Program-made: the position numbers and the translations under genes
The notes under the pieces: model-generated
The model's input: only the letters and a program-made list of their open reading frames with translations
What the model was told of the DNA's origin: nothing
Database searches by the model: none
Shown: in pieces, positions 27,039 through 44,926 of the stretch
Numbering within the stretch: position 1 is the stretch's first letter
How the letters are laid out: each line of letters starts with the position of its first letter
Source: Pseudomonadota bacterium
GTDB lineage: Bacteria > Pseudomonadota > Gammaproteobacteria > Burkholderiales > Burkholderiaceae_C
Direction: 5' to 3'
DNA length: 61,746 bases
Assembly (NCBI GenBank): GCA_021830925.1
Contig: JAKBNS010000211.1
Coordinates: 1-61,746, forward strand

Positions 27039-28934
27039 ATGACCACCGACACCCTGCTCGCGGGCCAAGCCCGTCCCGTTCCAGCCGCCCCCGCGCCCGC
27101 GGGCGTGTCGATCGACGATCTGTGGAAGGCCCTGCGCAGCCATGCCCATGACCCGGCGCAGCACCTGGGCGAGGCCCTGGTCCAGCGCGGGCTCATCACC
27201 CCGGCACAGCTCGCGCAGGCGCTCGCGCGCCAGGCGAAGGAGCAGCCGCATCGCGCGCTGGGGACCATCCTGGTCGATGGCGGCTTGCTGCGCGGCGAGC
27301 AACTCGACAAGGCCATCTCCGACTGGCTGGGCATGCACGTCGTCGACCTCGGCCAGCTCGCGCCACAGGCCCAGGCGCTGCGCCTGGTGCCGGCCGGATG
27401 GGCCGAGCGCGAGGCAGTGCTGCCACTGATGCTGCGCGACGGCCATCTGGTGGTGGCGTTGGCCGATCCGTGGAACAGCCGCAACCTGCTCAATGAACTT
27501 CGCCTGTTGACAAGCCTGGACATCGTGCCTGTCGCCGCCGCGCCCGCCACCCTGGGCCCGGCCATCGCCCGCGCCTATCGCGAGGCGGCCCCCGCGGGCG
27601 CGACGCAACCGCGCGACACGCGAGAGCTGGCCGCCGAACTCACGCGCCAGCCCGAACCCGCGCTGGCGGCCGACATCGCCGCGGCGAACGAATCGGACAG
27701 CACGCTGGTGCTTTTCATCAACTCGCTCATCGCCGATGCGATACGGCTTCGCGCCTCGGACATCCACGTGGAGACCGGTTCCGCCCCGAGCGGCGTGCGC
27801 ATCCGCCTGCGCATCGACGGCGACCTGGTCGACCACCTCCAGCTTCCCGCGCGCTACGCCTATGCCATGATTTCCAGGCTCAAGATCATGGCCGACCTGG
27901 ACATCGCCGAGCATCGCAAGCCGCAGGACGGAAAGATCGACTTCGCACGCTTCGGCGGGCCCCACATGGAAATGCGCATGGTGGTCGTCCCCACGGCGCA
28001 CGGCATGGAGGACGTCGTGCTGCGTCTGCTCGGGGGACTCAAGCCGATTCCGCTGGAGCACATCGACCTCAGCCCGGTCAACCTCGCGGCGCTGCGCGAG
28101 GTGATCGTCAAGCCCTACGGCCTGATCCTGGTCTGCGGCCCCACGGGCAGCGGCAAGACCACCACCCTGCACTCGGCCGTGCGCGAGATCAACACGGAGA
28201 AGTGCAAGATCTGGACCGCCGAGGACCCCGTGGAGATCACCCAGCCGGGACTTCGACAAGTGCAGGTCAATCCCCGCATCGGATGGACCTTCGCGGCGGC
28301 GATGCGCACCTTCCTGCGCGCCGATCCCGACGTGATCGTGATCGGCGAGATGCGCGACGAGGAGACCGCGCGCATCGCCGTCGAGGCCTCCCTGACCGGA
28401 CACCTGGTCATGTCGACGCTGCACACCAATTCGGCCGCCGAAAGCATCGCCCGGCTGCTGGAGATCGGCCTCGACCCCTTCACCTTTTCCGACTCCCTGC
28501 TGGGCATCCTGGCGCAGCGCCTGGTGCGTCGCCTGTGCGTGCACTGTCGGGTGCGCGAAGCCATGGCGGACGACGAGTTGCAGCACCTGGCCGGCCTGTA
28601 CCTGGCCAGCGGCGGCGGCGCCGGGGAGTCGCGCGAGCGCCTGCTCGAACGCTGGAGGTCCAGCTACGGCGACCCGCAGGGCCGCGTGCTGCGCTATCGC
28701 CACGCGGGCTGCGCGCACTGCGAGTCCTCGGGCTTTCACGGGCGGCTCGGGCTGCACGAATTCCTCGGCAGCGACGACGCCCTGCGCGAGCTGGTGCGCC
28801 GACGCGCGCCGGCCCGGGACGTCGTCGCGCTGTCGCAGGCGCGAGGCATGCCCACCCTGCTCCAGGACGGCATCGAAAAGATGTTCGGCGGACTCACCGA
28901 GCTCCCCGAGGTGCTCGCCGCGACCAACCACTGA
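27039..28934 (+). CDS. Stand-alone PilB/GspE-type secretion ATPase with MshEN c-di-GMP-binding motifs
   Basis: Hexameric ATPase of type IV pilus or type II secretion assembly, 631 residues. Near the N-terminus two tandem MshEN-like motifs (HLGEALVQRGLITPAQLAQA from 42, ALGTILVDGGLLRGEQLDKA from 73) match the c-di-GMP-binding repeats of MshE/PilB-type ATPases. The motor has Walker A (GPTGSGKTTTLHS, near 367), Asp box, Walker B (VIVIGEMRDEETARIA) and a two-CxxC zinc site (CVHC near 499, CAHC near 556). No pilC, pilD or secretin gene lies beside it, so it is an orphan of its machine. It converges on a large c-di-GMP enzyme gene. Confidence 0.92.
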   Translation: MTTDTLLAGQARPVPAAPAPAGVSIDDLWKALRSHAHDPAQHLGEALVQRGLITPAQLAQALARQAKEQPHRALGTILVDGGLLRGEQLDKAISDWLGMHVVDLGQLAPQAQALRLVPAGWAEREAVLPLMLRDGHLVVALADPWNSRNLLNELRLLTSLDIVPVAAAPATLGPAIARAYREAAPAGATQPRDTRELAAELTRQPEPALAADIAAANESDSTLVLFINSLIADAIRLRASDIHVETGSAPSGVRIRLRIDGDLVDHLQLPARYAYAMISRLKIMADLDIAEHRKPQDGKIDFARFGGPHMEMRMVVVPTAHGMEDVVLRLLGGLKPIPLEHIDLSPVNLAALREVIVKPYGLILVCGPTGSGKTTTLHSAVREINTEKCKIWTAEDPVEITQPGLRQVQVNPRIGWTFAAAMRTFLRADPDVIVIGEMRDEETARIAVEASLTGHLVMSTLHTNSAAESIARLLEIGLDPFTFSDSLLGILAQRLVRRLCVHCRVREAMADDELQHLAGLYLASGGGAGESRERLLERWRSSYGDPQGRVLRYRHAGCAHCESSGFHGRLGLHEFLGSDDALRELVRRRAPARDVVALSQARGMPTLLQDGIEKMFGGLTELPEVLAATNH

Positions 28935-28951
28935 AGCCGGCGTTCGGCCGC

Positions 28952-28986
28952 GCGTTCGCGGCGCCGCGCCTGGGCGTCGCGAACGC
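28952..28986. terminator. Inverted repeat between convergent ATPase and GGDEF-EAL genes
   Basis: Arms GCGTTCGCG and CGCGAACGC, loop of 17, lie in the 60-bp space between two converging stop codons. There is no T run. A bidirectional transcript-end hairpin is the simplest reading. Confidence 0.4.
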
Positions 28987-28994
28987 CCTGCGGT

Positions 28995-31900
28995 TCAGGC
29001 CGTCGGCTTCGCCGCGCGTGCGGACAGCCACTCCAGGAACTCCTGGGTGGCGCAGCTCGCCTGGGCGCCTTCGGTGTGCACGAGACCATGCAGGCGCACG
29101 CCCTCCGCGCAGTCCTCGCGGCCTTCGAGGAAACGCCCCACGGGGCATTCGTGCGCGCCGTGCGGGGTCCTCTCCTCGGTCGCGTGGGTGTAGCGCCAGT
29201 GGTAGGCCAGCGCCCCGGCAAAGGTCTGGATCGGCGCCGCCTGCGCTCCCGTCGCCGGCGTGAAGCCGGCGATCCAGGACGGCAGCTCGGCCAGGGGCAT
29301 CGGCCTGGCGAACAGATAGCCCTGGGCCTGATCGGCGCCGAATGCCGCGGCCACTTCCAGCATCGCCCGGTCCTCGATGCCCTCGACGACCACGCGCTGC
29401 CCCAGATCGCGTCCGAGCAGCACCAGCGCACCGACCAGCTTGACGGTCTGCAAGGGACTGTCGTACACGCGGCGGATCAGCGTCTGGTCGATCTTGATCG
29501 CGTCGAAGCGATAGGCCGCGATGCGTTCGATGCTGCTGTAGCCGGTGCCGAGGTCGTCGATGGCCACGCCCACGCCGACCCCGCGCAGCGCCTCGATGGC
29601 CCGGCCGTGGGTGGCCGGATCGAATTCCTGTGTCTCCAGCAGCTCCAGGGTCAGGCGCCCGGGCGCGATGCCGCGCTTGCGCAGCGCGGCATCGACCCAC
29701 TGGGCGCAATCCGCGTCGAGCAGGGTCGAGGGCGGCAGGTTGATCGAAAGGTCCAGCGCCAGGCCCCGGGCATCCCAGGCGCTCAGCGCATCGAGGGCGA
29801 GGTCGAGCCCCAGCCGGAACACGCGGTCCAGCTCGATCTCGCCCAGCGGCGGCAGAAAGACCGAGGGAGGGATGATCTCGCCGTCGGACATGCGCAGGCG
29901 CGCCAGCGCCTCGACGTGACGGACGCGGCCGGACTGCAGGTCCACCGTCGGCTGCACGAACATCTCGAGGCCGCCGGCGAACAGCCGATCCCGATAGCGC
30001 AGTGCCGCCTCCTGCGAGAGCTCCACCGAGCGGACGGGCCCGGCGCAGCGCCCCCAGGCCACTTCCAGGCGACGGCGCAGGCCCGCACTCCATTCCTGCA
30101 TCCACGCCGACGCGAACTGGGCGGTCTGGCGCCCGAACACACTGACCACGCCCACCACGTGGCCGTCACGTCCGCAAAAGGGTATCGACACGTGCGAGCG
30201 GATTCCCAGGCGCGCACCGACGTCGCGCCACGGCGCCACGCGCTCGTCCTGGGCCCAGGAATCGATGCGGGCGATGGCCTCGTTGCGCCATGCCAACGAG
30301 GTCGCGCTGCGCCCCCTGGGGGAGTCGGGGTCGAGTTCAGGCAGGCCTTCGCCGGCGAAGAGTTCGGTCAGCGGGTCCACGCCCTGCGCGCAGGCGCTGG
30401 CCTCGACCACGAGCGCGCCGCTGCGATGCAGACGCGTCAGCGCGACGGCCACGACACCGGGCAGCCGCCCCAGGAAGGCGATCTCGTGTTGCGAAGCATC
30501 CGACCATCGCGCGCCGCGCACCGGCTGCTCGCGCGCGAAGACCTCCAGATAGGAACGACTGACCGCCTCGGCGGCGGCGAACTGCGCGTGCAGGTCGTCC
30601 TGGAGGCGCAGGTCGAGCAGCCCGAGCAAGCGGTATCGCTTGGTCAGTGGCAGCCGAGCCGCAGCCAGACGCTCGGCGAGCAGCCCGCGGTAACGCATCG
30701 ACGCGCGCGCGAGCATGGAGCCGCTCACGCCACCCAGCAGATGGATCTCGCCCAGTTGGCGCGCGCGCCCCAGCAGGCGCTCGCGCGTCGTCCGCGGATC
30801 GACGAGCATCGACAGGTAGGCCGCCTGGCGGCGCTTGAGCTCGGCGAACTGCTCCCCGGACAGGGTCCCCAGCAGGGCCAGCGCGGCCGGGTCCTTCGCC
30901 AGGTCGCGGTAGAACTCCTCGACGAACTCCGCGTGGATGCGATCGAACAAACCGGCGAATTCGGTGAGCAGCACGTCGGCCTCCGCGGCGTAGCCGTCCA
31001 GCGGGGACTCCGGCTGCTCGACCGCGCCGTCGGCGACCCCCATCTGCCACCAGTTGATGCGCGTCTTCTTTCTCTGCTTGAGCTGGTACATCGCGGCGTC
31101 GGCCAGGCGCAGCAACTGGTCCGGATCCCAGCTGTCCTGCGGAAAGCGCGCGACTCCCATGGTCAGTCCCACGCGCGCTGACGCCCCCTCGGCCAGCGCG
31201 ACCGGGCTGACGACGGCCTCGTGCAGGCGTCCGAACACGGCCGACAGTTGCTGCATCGCGAGCACGGAGTCGATTTCCTCGACGACGAACACGAACTCGT
31301 CGCCGCCGAGGCGCGCGATGAGTTCGCTGCGGCGCAAACGGGCACGCCAGCGCCCCGTCAGCTCCCGGAGCAGAAGATCCCCGGCGGCGTGTCCGTAGCG
31401 GTCGTTCACGTCCTTGAAGTCGTCCAGGTCGATGTAGCAGACGGCGACCTCCTTGCGGTCGCGCCGCGCGCGCGCGAGCGCCTCCTGCAGGTGCAGGTTC
31501 AGCGCGAGACGGTTGGGCAGGCCCGTCAGCGCGTCGCGCAGCGACTGCACGGTCGCCGTGCGCCGCATATCGGAGAGCTGAACAAAGGAGGCCTGGATGC
31601 GCACCGCGGCCAGCATCAGGAAGGCAAAGTACAGGACGATCAGCAGGCCGAGAGCCTCCAGCGATGGATTGGCCGACCCGATGAGCCGCAAACTCGTGGG
31701 TACGAAAGGCGGGAGAATGAACAGCGCGGCCGACCATGCGTCGGAGGCCAGCTGGGCGACGCCCGCACCGCACACCGCGGCGACGACCGCGGCGACGAGG
31801 ATTTCATCGAAGGCCGTGCTCGGCGGCATCAGCAGGGGCAGCAGCGCCCAGGCGCAGCCCAGCAGGCCCACGCTGGCACGCAGGTGCAACAGCCACCGCG

Positions 31901-32243
31901 AAGCGTTCGTTCCCTCGGCCAGCGCGGCCCTTGCGCCGAACCACACGCTCATGCGCACCACATGCGCGAGCACGATACTGGCGATCCACGTCCACAGGAG
32001 GCGTGCGGAGACTTGATCGCGCAGCACCCAGGCCATGAATCCGGTGGGCACGATGCTTCCGATGAATCCGACCGGAATGATCTGCAGCAGGACCCGCACG
32101 CGGTCGACGATGATGTCCGCCTGGCCCGTCCGGGCCGCCGCGTCGAATGCGCCCGCCACGAAATCCTTCAGGGCCAGCGCCCCGAGGGCACGCGCACCGG
32201 GATGCGCCGCCGACAGCTCCGATGGAGGCCCGCTGGGTTTCAT
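28995..32243 (-). CDS. Membrane GGDEF-globin-GAF-EAL protein with C-terminal CZB-like zinc domain
   Basis: Dual c-di-GMP enzyme of 1082 residues. In order: a membrane region of five or six helices (about 50-215); GGDEF domain (DLDDFKDVND; GGDEF at 313-317; I-site position reads RRSE); a helical globin-like domain (about 425-560) whose LGEIHLLGGV (H501) resembles the proximal His of protoglobins and globin-coupled sensors; a GAF-like domain (about 590-715); an EAL domain with all key residues (EAL 778-780, N835, IDDLGTGYSS, K917, E954); and a tail with HW, CPVGRFL (C1033) and HGLVH (H1052, H1056), the ligand pattern of CZB zinc sensors. The ATG before KPSGPP is chosen; longer starts add a tail unlike the family. 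It may sense a gas and zinc. Confidence 0.9.
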   Translation of the reverse strand: MKPSGPPSELSAAHPGARALGALALKDFVAGAFDAAARTGQADIIVDRVRVLLQIIPVGFIGSIVPTGFMAWVLRDQVSARLLWTWIASIVLAHVVRMSVWFGARAALAEGTNASRWLLHLRASVGLLGCAWALLPLLMPPSTAFDEILVAAVVAAVCGAGVAQLASDAWSAALFILPPFVPTSLRLIGSANPSLEALGLLIVLYFAFLMLAAVRIQASFVQLSDMRRTATVQSLRDALTGLPNRLALNLHLQEALARARRDRKEVAVCYIDLDDFKDVNDRYGHAAGDLLLRELTGRWRARLRRSELIARLGGDEFVFVVEEIDSVLAMQQLSAVFGRLHEAVVSPVALAEGASARVGLTMGVARFPQDSWDPDQLLRLADAAMYQLKQRKKTRINWWQMGVADGAVEQPESPLDGYAAEADVLLTEFAGLFDRIHAEFVEEFYRDLAKDPAALALLGTLSGEQFAELKRRQAAYLSMLVDPRTTRERLLGRARQLGEIHLLGGVSGSMLARASMRYRGLLAERLAAARLPLTKRYRLLGLLDLRLQDDLHAQFAAAEAVSRSYLEVFAREQPVRGARWSDASQHEIAFLGRLPGVVAVALTRLHRSGALVVEASACAQGVDPLTELFAGEGLPELDPDSPRGRSATSLAWRNEAIARIDSWAQDERVAPWRDVGARLGIRSHVSIPFCGRDGHVVGVVSVFGRQTAQFASAWMQEWSAGLRRRLEVAWGRCAGPVRSVELSQEAALRYRDRLFAGGLEMFVQPTVDLQSGRVRHVEALARLRMSDGEIIPPSVFLPPLGEIELDRVFRLGLDLALDALSAWDARGLALDLSINLPPSTLLDADCAQWVDAALRKRGIAPGRLTLELLETQEFDPATHGRAIEALRGVGVGVAIDDLGTGYSSIERIAAYRFDAIKIDQTLIRRVYDSPLQTVKLVGALVLLGRDLGQRVVVEGIEDRAMLEVAAAFGADQAQGYLFARPMPLAELPSWIAGFTPATGAQAAPIQTFAGALAYHWRYTHATEERTPHGAHECPVGRFLEGREDCAEGVRLHGLVHTEGAQASCATQEFLEWLSARAAKPTA

Positions 32244-32533
32244 CTGTCCGTCCGTCCGGTCTAGCGTCTCGTGTCGGTCGCCGGCCTCGCGACGATCCGG
32301 GGGCGGGAAATCCGACCGAGGCCCGTGGGCGACGCCTGACGATGCGCGGCGCCCTGCAACGCAGAGTATCCGAGAACAAAGGGTTCGAACGTGCAATAGA
32401 TCACGAAAAGCACTACCCGTCGCGATCTCCGCGCTTTCCCGACTTTTCGGCCTCGAAATCCTCGGAAGCGTCGCGAACGGACGACATTCATCATTCACGG
32501 GCACGCTGCGGGCCGCGGGCCGCGAGGTGCAGG

Positions 32534-32554
32534 GGGCCGGGCACCGCCCGGCCC
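32534..32554 (-). terminator. GC hairpin after the SDR gene; surrounding 319-bp space has no gene
   Basis: Arms GGGCCGGGC and GCCCGGCCC with a 3-nt loop sit 8 bp beyond the SDR stop codon on the minus strand. There is no T run, so efficiency as an intrinsic terminator is doubtful. The rest of the 32244-32562 space carries the upstream region of the large c-di-GMP gene; I saw no gene or clear promoter in it. Confidence 0.45.
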
Positions 32555-32562
32555 GGGGGCGT

Positions 32563-33342
32563 TCAGAGGATCATGCCCCCCGAAGCCTCGATGCGCTGCC
32601 CGTTCACCCAGCGGTGCGAGGACATCAGCAGGGAGGCGATGAGCGGCCCGATGTCCTCCGCCACGCCGGCCCGCCCCAGCGCGGTGTTGGCGGCCACGAT
32701 GCGGTTCACCTCGGGGTTGTCGCGCACCATGCCGCCGCTGAAATCGGTCTGGATGGCTCCCGGCGCCACGGTGTTCGCGGCGATGCCCCGAGGACCGAGT
32801 TCCTTGGCCAGATACCGCGTGAGCACCTCCACCGCGCCCTTCATCGAGGCGTAGGCGGCGCTGCCGGGAAAGGCGAAGCGGGTGAGCCCGCTGGACACGT
32901 TGACGATGCGCCCGCCGTCGCGCAGCAGGCCCAGCAGCTTCTGGGTGAGCAGGAACACGCCCTTGAAATGCACGGCGTAGAGGCTGTCGAGTTCCGCCTC
33001 GGTGGTCGATTCGATGGGCCGATGGTGCGACGTGCCGGCGTTGTTCACGAGAAAGTCGATGCGATCCGTTCCCAGCGTGGAAATCGCCTCGGGCAGCCGC
33101 GCCACGAAGGCGTCGAAGCTCGAGGCATCGCCGCTGTCGAGGGGAAGCGCGATGCCCCGGCAGCCGCGCTGCGCGAGCAGCGCCACGACCTCGTCGGCCT
33201 GCGCCCGGTTCGTGTGGTAGGTGAAAATGCTCGGCACGCCGAGTTCGGCCAGGCTGAGCACGGTGCTGCGCCCCAGGCCCCGGCTGCCGCCGGTGACGAG
33301 GGCGATGCGGGGCGATGCGGTGGTGTAGACGAGGTCGGTCAT
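32563..33342 (-). CDS. SDR-family oxidoreductase
   Basis: Classical short-chain dehydrogenase of 259 residues with cofactor motif TGGSRGLGRS, NNAG strand, catalytic Ser in NVSSGLTRF and Tyr/Lys in YASMK. The C-terminus (WVNGQRIEASGGMIL) is the usual SDR end. It resembles 3-oxoacyl-ACP-reductase-like proteins, but the substrate is unknown. GGAAG precedes the chosen ATG. It is divergent from an AraC-type regulator across 127 bp, an arrangement that often means the regulator controls the dehydrogenase. Confidence 0.9.
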   Translation of the reverse strand: MTDLVYTTASPRIALVTGGSRGLGRSTVLSLAELGVPSIFTYHTNRAQADEVVALLAQRGCRGIALPLDSGDASSFDAFVARLPEAISTLGTDRIDFLVNNAGTSHHRPIESTTEAELDSLYAVHFKGVFLLTQKLLGLLRDGGRIVNVSSGLTRFAFPGSAAYASMKGAVEVLTRYLAKELGPRGIAANTVAPGAIQTDFSGGMVRDNPEVNRIVAANTALGRAGVAEDIGPLIASLLMSSHRWVNGQRIEASGGMIL

Positions 33343-42772: not shown

Positions 42773-44926
42773 ATGCGACATCTGGATCCAAGCATTCTTC
42801 CGAGCGGCGCGGCCGGCGCGCAGGCACAGGCGCAGGTGGGCACCGAGGTCATCCGGCGCCTGGCCGCGCAGCGCGATCTGGAGCGCTTCTTCGAGCTGGC
42901 GGCAGCCGAGGCGGCGCGCGTACTGCACGCCGACGGCGCGGCGCTGATCGAGCGCGATGGCCCCTCGCATCTGCGCTACCGCTTTTTCCAGGGGCTGCCG
43001 GAGGATTACCGGCGCCTGGCCGCGGGGTACCGCTTCGAGATCTCCGACGGCACCGCGGGACAGGCGCTGCGCTGCGGCGAGCCGGTGTTCACGGCCGACT
43101 ATCCCGCCAGCGACCATGCGATGCCGGATTTCGTGCGCTGCGGGCTTCGCGCCAACCTGATCGTGCCGGTCGGTCCGCTCGACGACCGCCGCGGCGTGAT
43201 CGCGGTGGCCTGGTTCGAGCGTGCGCCGGCGCACGAGCCCGATGCCGAGCAGCTGGCGGTCGTGGCCATGGTGGCCGACCTGATGTACTGGGCGCTGCAC
43301 CGCCAGCATCTGGAACACAGTCTGCAGCAGCAGGCGCGTCACGACCCGCTGACCGGACTTCCCAACCGACGCTATCTGCTCGGCCAGCTCGACACCATGC
43401 TGCGCCAGCAGTCGCCGCAGGCGCCGCTTGCGGTGGCCTGGCTGGACCTGGACGGATTCAAGCCGGTCAACGACCTGCACGGCCACGAGCAGGGCGACGC
43501 GGTGCTGGGCATGTTCGCCGAACGCCTGCGCGGGGCGGTGCGGGAGAACGATTTCGTGGCGCGCCTGGGGGGCGACGAGTTCGCCGCGGTGTTCGCCGAG
43601 GTGCACGGCGAGCAGGAGCTGCACGCGCTGCTGGACCGGCTGAGCGAACGCCTGAACCGACCCTACCGGCTGCGCTCGGGCATCGCCGTGGAGTGTCCGG
43701 CCAGCATCGGCGCGGCGTGGGCGGGCGCGGCTTCGCTGGACGCCGAGGCGCTGCTGCGCGACGCCGACCGCGCCATGTACCTGGCCAAGGGACGGCATCG
43801 CCCCGGGCAGGCCGCCTGGCGGGTGTTCGCGGTGCCGCCGCCGCGGCTCGGCGCCGACGCCCACGCCGAACTGCCGGGACAGCTCGAACTGCATTACCAG
43901 CCGGTGTTCGACCTCGACCGACGCCGCGTGGTGCGCCTGGAAAGCCTGGCCCGGCTGCGCCGGGACGCGCAGCTGCTGGCTCCGGCCGAGTTCCTGGGCC
44001 AGCTGGACCGGCGCCAGCACCGTCAACTGCTGCACGGGGTGCTCGACGCCAGCCTGCACCAACTGGCGCAATGGGAGCTGCAGGGCATGGGCGGCCTGTG
44101 CGTGTCGGTCAACGTGGAGCCGCACTCGCTGGGCGAACCCGACCTGGCGCAACGCGTGGCCGAACGCCTGCAACGCCACGGCCTGCACCCGAGCCGGCTG
44201 ACGCTGGAAATCCTCGAACGCGGCGAACTGCTCAGCCGCGAAGCCGCGCTGCGCCAGCTCACCCTGCTGCGCGCCATGGGGGTGCGCCTGGCCATCGACG
44301 ACCTGGGCGCCGGGCATTCCAGCCTGCTGCGCCTGCGCAGCCTGCCCATCGACGAGATCAAGCTCGACCAGGCCTTCGTGCGCGACATCGCGCGCAATCT
44401 GCAGGACATCGCCTTCGTGCGCAGCGTGCGCGAGCTGGCGCACGGCCTGCACGTCGAGCTGGTGGCCGAGGGGGCCGAGAACGCCGAGATCCTGGAAATC
44501 CTGCGTGCGCTGGGCATCCGGCAGGTGCAGGGCTGGGGCGTCGCGCGCGCGGTACCGGCGCGCGAACTGCCCCAGCTGCTGGCGCGCCTGCGTCACTGGC
44601 GACCGGTACGCGTGGGCAGCGCGCTGGCGCTGGCCTATACGTGGCACCTGAACCTGGATTCCCACATCCTGGGCCTGCTGCACAACGCGCCGGAGCATCT
44701 GCGCGCCTTCCGTCCCGGCGAGGCGCTGCCGGCCGACCTTGACCTGGCCCTGCGCGAACTGCCGGCGGCGCGCGACCTGTACCGCCAGCAGCGGGTGCTG
44801 CTGGCCGACATGGCCCGCCACCACGATCTCGACCTGCGCCTGCCCATGCGCCGCTACCGCCAGCTCGGCGAGCGCGTGCGCGAACTGCTGGCGCTGGCCG
44901 CGCGCATGGGGCCCGACCCGGCATGA
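42773..44926 (+). CDS. GAF-GGDEF-EAL cyclic-di-GMP protein
   Basis: Soluble protein of 717 residues. A GAF domain (about 25-175) precedes GGDEF (LDLDGFKPVND; GGDEF at 266-270) and EAL domains. The I-site is intact (REND at 257-260). The EAL motif is ESL (390-392), but the other catalytic residues are kept (VSVNVE, LEILE, AIDDLGAGHSS, EIKLDQ, AEGAEN, VQGWG), so both activities are possible. A helical tail of about 100 residues follows; its ALAYTWHLN recalls the ALAYHWRYT that begins the zinc tail of the other large c-di-GMP protein in this window, but the metal ligands are not recognisable. The ATG before RHLDPS is chosen as the first close to the GAF start. Confidence 0.92.
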   Translation: MRHLDPSILPSGAAGAQAQAQVGTEVIRRLAAQRDLERFFELAAAEAARVLHADGAALIERDGPSHLRYRFFQGLPEDYRRLAAGYRFEISDGTAGQALRCGEPVFTADYPASDHAMPDFVRCGLRANLIVPVGPLDDRRGVIAVAWFERAPAHEPDAEQLAVVAMVADLMYWALHRQHLEHSLQQQARHDPLTGLPNRRYLLGQLDTMLRQQSPQAPLAVAWLDLDGFKPVNDLHGHEQGDAVLGMFAERLRGAVRENDFVARLGGDEFAAVFAEVHGEQELHALLDRLSERLNRPYRLRSGIAVECPASIGAAWAGAASLDAEALLRDADRAMYLAKGRHRPGQAAWRVFAVPPPRLGADAHAELPGQLELHYQPVFDLDRRRVVRLESLARLRRDAQLLAPAEFLGQLDRRQHRQLLHGVLDASLHQLAQWELQGMGGLCVSVNVEPHSLGEPDLAQRVAERLQRHGLHPSRLTLEILERGELLSREAALRQLTLLRAMGVRLAIDDLGAGHSSLLRLRSLPIDEIKLDQAFVRDIARNLQDIAFVRSVRELAHGLHVELVAEGAENAEILEILRALGIRQVQGWGVARAVPARELPQLLARLRHWRPVRVGSALALAYTWHLNLDSHILGLLHNAPEHLRAFRPGEALPADLDLALRELPAARDLYRQQRVLLADMARHHDLDLRLPMRRYRQLGERVRELLALAARMGPDPA

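Follow-up and report, generated by a model that had tools for sequence, protein, structure and literature searches.

Introduction

Proteins in which a globin is coupled to the synthesis or breakdown of cyclic diguanosine monophosphate (c-di-GMP) have been described from several bacteria, and we compare with them here a gene encoding a 1082-residue protein in a 61,746-nucleotide stretch of a Pseudomonadota bacterium (GenBank assembly GCA_021830925.1, contig JAKBNS010000211.1); this whole stretch is called the window below. DcpG of Paenibacillus dendritiformis combines a globin with GGDEF and EAL domains, and according to the passages devoted to it, its O2 form favors c-di-GMP breakdown and its NO form synthesis (PMC10882959). 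Chp1 of Azorhizobium and GCS-HD-GYP of Vibrio fluvialis are presented, in the corresponding passages, as globin-coupled phosphodiesterases (PMC8846402, PMC10882959). For the acidophiles of Acidithiobacillus, Protoglobin-GGDEF-EAL-CZB proteins (AFE_1712 and others) have been listed, and a table of the same paper gives 80 GGDEF-EAL proteins with a protoglobin and 62 with a CZB domain, and includes a GCS-EAL type (PMC6416229). Concerning CZB domains, the relevant sections of one survey state that EAL proteins make up 3.4% of CZB proteins, name a globin in the architecture legend, and describe the Gly at position 4 of the Cys motif as near-universal (PMC8262984). Genomic islands of Thiomonas have been reported to be rich in GGDEF/EAL genes; words starting with "globin" do not occur in the main text of that paper (PMC2829063).

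The window protein consists, in this order, of membrane helices, a GGDEF domain, a protoglobin-type domain, a GAF-like region, an EAL domain and a short tail. An initial annotation, made from the letters alone, had placed the globin between GGDEF and GAF-EAL and behind membrane helices, and Pfam and hydropathy confirmed this order. As in DcpG, one globin occurs together with both c-di-GMP enzymes. The globin comes first in DcpG, whereas in the window protein the GGDEF domain and the membrane helices stand ahead of it. No tail is mentioned in the passages on DcpG. The Acidithiobacillus proteins, which we compared by description only, likewise have globin, GGDEF and EAL in one chain, with a CZB domain named there, and differ in that their printed order starts with the globin. 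Chp1 and GCS-HD-GYP resemble the window protein in coupling a globin to c-di-GMP breakdown, and GCS-HD-GYP differs in having an N-terminal globin and another catalytic domain. The novelty claimed in the initial annotation is reduced by the published Acidithiobacillus proteins and DcpG: the single protein seems to be a variation on published architectures, and what seems new are its domain order, its tail family and the expansion described below. Among the open-access papers listed by our searches, no title or abstract opening described such a domain order or a globin-sensor expansion.

The reading that we favor, with confidence somewhat above even, is that the gene encodes a phosphodiesterase that responds to gases, linked in one chain to a membrane diguanylate cyclase, i.e., that a membrane-GGDEF unit has been fused ahead of a protoglobin-GAF-EAL-tail cassette. 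According to this proposal, the globin would bind haem and O2 or NO, and the GAF region would relay its ligand state, chiefly to the EAL domain, altering c-di-GMP breakdown. The GGDEF domain would either make c-di-GMP under the control of the membrane region or serve the EAL domain as a GTP-binding helper. For the tail, we envisage a small bundle of helices; in many members, including the window's, it could hold a metal through a Cys and an HxxxH motif and tune the EAL dimer. The letters give us the parts, namely the order, the catalytic signatures, the sensor-type globin and the expansion within a genus, and we infer all regulatory steps from these.

Globin and Catalytic Domains

Judged from profile, predicted fold and conservation, the globin domain is real. 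The AlphaFold2 (AF2) model of this domain, built with 10 sequences (pLDDT 91.7, pTM 0.85), matched solved sensor globins when searched with Foldseek: the first 23 rows were all sensor-type globin domains, among them DosC, Tlr1989, AfGcHK, BpeGReg, a Geobacter sensor and HemAT, with five rows at E <=0.001, a best E of 3.5e-4 and query-normalised TM-scores of 0.60-0.74 in the first five. When a 17-row globin profile was searched against the PDB, solved globin sensors accounted for five of the six rows, these being 8h17 (Tlr1989), 2w31, 7o0i, 5ohe (AfGcHK) and 1or4 (HemAT), at E <=0.01. Conservation was examined in 98 distinct globins, the window's included, which were the best-scoring of the loci examined (>100 bits and a length filter, near-identical ones dropped). 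The column of H501 holds His in 88 of them, Gln in 7, Leu in 2 and Tyr in 1, and H501 aligns with a His in all four sensor globins whose alignments were shown. The column of the B-helix Tyr (Y445) holds Tyr in 82 of the 98, and this residue aligns with the FY motif of four solved sensor globins; the B-helix Tyr has a distal-side role in other globin sensors. By its fold and proximal His, the domain is a globin-coupled sensor of the protoglobin type in an unusual layout, for which haem binding is predicted. The initial annotation of a globin-like domain with H501 was supported in its fold, profile and conservation, and fell short in the domain's own Pfam score (17.5 bits vs. 25).

The GGDEF and EAL domains claimed in the same annotation were both found by Pfam with intact signatures. 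The RLGGDEF motif is present, and the EAL domain has E778, N835, E870, D896, D897, K917, E954 and Q974, the positions of the catalytic set of EAL domains.

Several observations weigh against the favored reading. The Pfam Protoglobin match (PF11563, residues 427-530, E 0.0043) is the one below the cut-off of 25 bits, a value that represents a detection limit and not a biological feature, and the relatives L001 (76% identical) and L002 gave no Pfam protoglobin match at E 0.1. The lowest E-value in the PDB profile search belonged to 8pjw, presumably an unrelated designed protein, in which no stretch passed alone. The proximal His is absent in 10 of the 98 globins, which implies that haem binding is not required in every copy, and the 98 globins are an uneven sample. 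The GAF_2 match at residues 637-710 has an E of 0.0015 and, with 19.2 bits, lies under its cut-off of 28.6; we write of a GAF-like region. In the GGDEF domain, the position of the inhibitory site is R304..E307, i.e., RxxE and not RxxD, as it is also in L001 and another relative, L243; an RxxD inhibitory site is dispensable for diguanylate cyclase activity. Finally, the enzyme on which the globin would act is assigned from its position only.

The scores of related domains speak against a mere chance match of the globin. In a six-frame search of the window's own genome with the protoglobin model, eight of the nine matches listed exceed the Pfam cut-off, and the window's globin is too divergent to appear among the nine; scanned as whole proteins, the paralogues on contigs C184 (24.1 bits) and C282 (20.5 bits) drop below 25 bits, and that on C58 lies at the cut-off. 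The GAF_2 match of paralogue C233 is barely above its own threshold (29.9 vs. 28.6 bits).

An alternative that we judge unlikely is that the globin persists as a structural relic without haem, or binds another ligand, and that only the membrane and GAF regions regulate the protein. Sensor globins do have relatives that lack haem, and the sub-threshold Pfam score of the window globin and the Gln, Leu or Tyr at the proximal position of 10 of the 98 globins would fit such a relic; retention of both H501 and Y445 in the window protein and in L001, together with the confident globin fold model, argues against it. Separately, natural replacements of the proximal His by Gln, Leu or Tyr are carried by L097 (contig C206 of the window's genome) and nine other relatives.

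Distribution of the Cassette and Its Front Ends

The expansion of the cassette is, in our view, the more interesting finding. The window's genome contains 14 globin-GAF modules, each followed directly by an EAL match, among a total of 34 EAL and 39 GGDEF matches, and with 14 of the 34 EAL matches behind a globin-GAF module, gases could control a large share of the c-di-GMP breakdown predicted for this genome. Of these 14 modules, 11 allowed the haem position to be read by pattern (His in 10, Gln in 1). In the Thiomonas-like genus to which the genome belongs, the globin-GAF module (E 1e-30) was found in all 25 genomes searched, among them the window's, with from at least 2 to at least 18 matches each, and in 0 of 16 genomes outside the genus; these counts are module matches, for part of which the EAL domain and tail were read, and since scoring covered the top 5 to 52 candidates in each genome, copy numbers outside the window's genome are lower bounds. 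Among 300 genomes of the order, the module (E <=1e-60) and the tail (E 1e-4) occurred in the same 15, the window's included, and neither was seen in eight genomes of this family from other genera. Across the class, the module at E 1e-25 was present in 13 of 369 genomes, again including the window's, and 3 of the 16 frames read at these loci had a tail-profile match. Further relatives were found in Ferrovum and in Proteobacteria metagenome-assembled genomes, whereas searching plasmids with the globin-GAF part yielded nothing. The assignment to a Thiomonas-like organism is based on a sequence identity: Thiomonas sp. FB-6 (L003) and a genome of the same genus group, G324, agree at 2001 of 2001 bases (100%).

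The stretch ahead of the globin varies among these proteins. A GGDEF-like motif precedes the globin in 80 of the 98 copies; fewer than 160 residues precede it in 17, i.e., these have no domain in front; and the remaining copy has a longer stretch without a GGDEF-like motif. One of the 17 short-front copies, C233, starts at a contig end, and some of the 17 are near relatives of each other. The copies without a front domain indicate that the conserved unit is globin-GAF-EAL-tail, and these globin-first copies, together with the distribution of the membrane N-terminus given below, lead us to infer that the ancestral partner of the globin was the EAL domain. The mid-chain globin of the window protein looks like the result of fusing a GGDEF domain ahead of a globin-first phosphodiesterase, and from this layout the globin would seem to be part of the EAL unit.

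The membrane N-terminus also has relatives. A related one, 49% identical, precedes a GGDEF domain in another protein of this genome, a frame of 635 residues on contig C37, and an N-terminus more than 60% identical was found in only 2 of 27 other genomes of the genus (G322 and G326). Full-length orthologues, L243 from G326 and L001, align from residue 1 with 76-77% identity, and the tail letters of L001 are those of the G322 copy, L140.

Some further observations concern individual copies. L101, on contig C26 of the window's genome, is a protoglobin-GGDEF protein in the usual layout with the globin first, and its protoglobin score is below the cut-off. Contig C3 of genome G313 carries three modules of near-equal score at 2564523, 2589915 and 2591919, two of which are separated by about 2 kb, which would fit a recent duplication. 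L139 of genome G308 is a cassette relative with one in-frame TAG within the globin-GAF match.

C-Terminal Tail

The initial annotation had regarded the C-terminal segment as a CZB zinc domain, with ligands spaced as in that family. The residues it named, H501 in the globin and H1015, C1033, H1052 and H1056 in the tail, are all located at these positions of the 1082-residue protein. The last 90 residues constitute a separate family, recognizable by GALA..W, CP..xF, H...H and WL at the end. AF2 modeled the tail (86 residues, 11 sequences) as four helices, with pLDDT 83.8 and pTM 0.75; a Foldseek search with this model gave nothing at E 0.001 and no CZB domain among the two rows at E 10. The tail profile searched against the PDB gave two rows, the best of which (E 0.19) was a ribosomal protein.

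It is improbable, in our estimation, that a haem gas sensor and a true CZB zinc sensor jointly set opposing enzyme activities, as was originally proposed. C1033 and HxxxH are indeed present, and lie near a c-di-GMP enzyme as in the EAL-CZB proteins and DgcZ, and the HxxxH spacing and the Gly at C+3 of the window protein agree with CZB. The window tail matches the Pfam CZB model (PF13682) at E 0.1; the score, however, is 13.5 bits against a cut-off of 29.4, only 1 of 14 tails matched, an alpha-amylase-inhibitor model was slightly better in the same scan (E 0.076), and the whole-protein scan had no CZB match at E 1. The Gly at C+3 is found in just 5 of the 50 tails having Cys and HxxxH. The claim about spacing did not hold: the window tail has 18 residues from H1015 to C1033, 19 from C1033 to H1052 and 4 within HxxxH, whereas 25 CZB domains of the same order have 26-30, 24-31 and 4, and the 50 tail relatives have 16-22 and 18-21, with no overlap. 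This comparison set was chosen by pattern, with 25 of 32 loci kept and seven misfits dropped, and the long frames for C209, C210 and C40 were left out of the CZB work. The CZB domains compared differ from the window tail in their longer ligand gaps and in that the matches listed pass the Pfam cut-off.

Profile-profile comparison gave evidence on both sides. With hhalign, the 50 tails having Cys and HxxxH scored 21.7 against the CZB profile, above all 100 column-shuffled controls (maximum 15.6), with a probability of 16.5%; the rows had been picked for Cys and HxxxH, so this score is partly circular. All 88 tails together scored 16.8, again above 100 column-shuffled controls (maximum 14.3), with a probability of 3.3%. 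An earlier run with a stricter pattern (8 tails; probability 5.8%, reversed control 0.3%) is superseded by these two. The paralogue on C282 has a CZB-type segment at the same place, with 20.3 bits (E 7.4e-4) and 26.3 bits (E 3.2e-5) in two scans, the cut-off being 29.4. Membership of the tail in the CZB family was thus not established by Pfam score, spacing, Foldseek, the PDB profile search or hhalign. The zinc-sensor claim is best lowered to that of a possible metal-binding tail, in which C1033, H1052, H1056 and another residue possibly form a metal site; the protein may act like a CZB protein, yet we do not class it as one.

The conservation of this candidate site was counted in 88 tails, 10 of the 98 globin proteins being left out as they had no tail match. 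Cys and both His are present in 50 tails; 26 are without the Cys and without one or both His; in 11 the Cys occurs but the HxxxH pair is incomplete, and in one the pair occurs but the Cys does not. In 76 of the 88, Cys and HxxxH thus occur jointly or are jointly missing. The co-occurrence gives a Fisher p of 1.3e-12 when kinship is ignored; on independent pairs from a quick GAF-EAL tree (6 pairs), 3.7 changed in the same way, 0.0 in the opposite way and 2.3 showed no difference, for which the sign test (median p 0.125) is not significant, a result that also counts against a true CZB sensor. For H1015, a candidate fourth ligand, the column holds His in 45 of the 50 full-set tails as against 20 of the 38 others, and a His between Trp and Cys is found in 47 of the 50 and in 19 of the 38; the link between H1015 and Cys on independent pairs was 2.1 in the same way and 0.7 in the opposite way.

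Two interpretations of the cassette are connected with these counts. A serious contender, though with a little less than an even chance, is that the tail is a helix bundle for dimerisation or targeting only, without any separate role for the Cys/His pattern; this would explain why 26 of the 88 tails have no Cys and lack one or both His, whereas Trp1016 is retained in 87 of the 88, and it agrees less well with the joint presence of Cys and both His in 50 tails and the single row with HxxxH but no Cys. More tentatively, the cassette could be a two-input sensor, combining a haem gas sensor with a compact Cys/His metal or redox site in a new small domain family, which has multiplied to as many as about 18 copies in a genome, with varied front ends, some copies missing one input. 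Copies missing one input or the other would then give one cell a graded set of gas/metal-responsive c-di-GMP enzymes. For experimental studies, nature supplies a ready test series for each sensor, in copies that have either His or Gln at the haem position and in which the Cys/His set of the tail is present or absent.

Gene Layout and Neighboring Genes

The features of the gene and the adjoining gene are collected in Table 1. The membrane region consists of several hydrophobic stretches by hydropathy, and residues 1-231 matched no Pfam family at E 0.01.

Table 1. Positions, in the window, of the globin-containing gene, its parts and the neighboring gene.
Feature	Position	Strand	Evidence or remarks
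Whole gene, 1082 aa	28995..32243	minus	Single open frame; ATG start at 32243
Multi-helix membrane region, residues 43-224	31572..32117	minus	Hydropathy
GGDEF domain, residues 235-394	31062..31541	minus	Pfam, E 3e-39
Protoglobin-type domain, residues 410-568	30540..31016	minus	Pfam, profile, fold model, conservation
H501, predicted proximal haem ligand	30741..30743	minus	Conservation and alignment with solved sensor globins
Y445, B-helix tyrosine of FY motif, predicted distal side	30909..30911	minus	Conservation and alignment
GAF-like region between globin and EAL	29988..30539	minus	Pfam GAF_2, residues 637-710
EAL domain, residues 751-981	29301..29993	minus	Pfam, E 2.6e-49
C-terminal helical tail, residues 994-1079	29007..29264	minus	C1033, H1052, H1056; nearby H1015, H1020, H1028, H1031
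Neighbor: secretion/pilus ATPase with MshEN domain	27039..28934	plus	PF00437 2.6e-111, PF05157 3e-17

The neighboring gene for an MshEN-type ATPase is convergent (tail to tail) with the globin gene, and it adjoins the orthologue also in L001 and L243. As MshEN is a c-di-GMP-binding family, this ATPase is a possible local target of c-di-GMP. A search with Rfam found nothing at the gathering score within 28500-33000, and a consensus scan of 28800-32700 found no promoter-like site. Other c-di-GMP genes in the window are a GGDEF domain at 1194-1670 and a GGDEF-EAL pair at 43334-44548, both on the plus strand.

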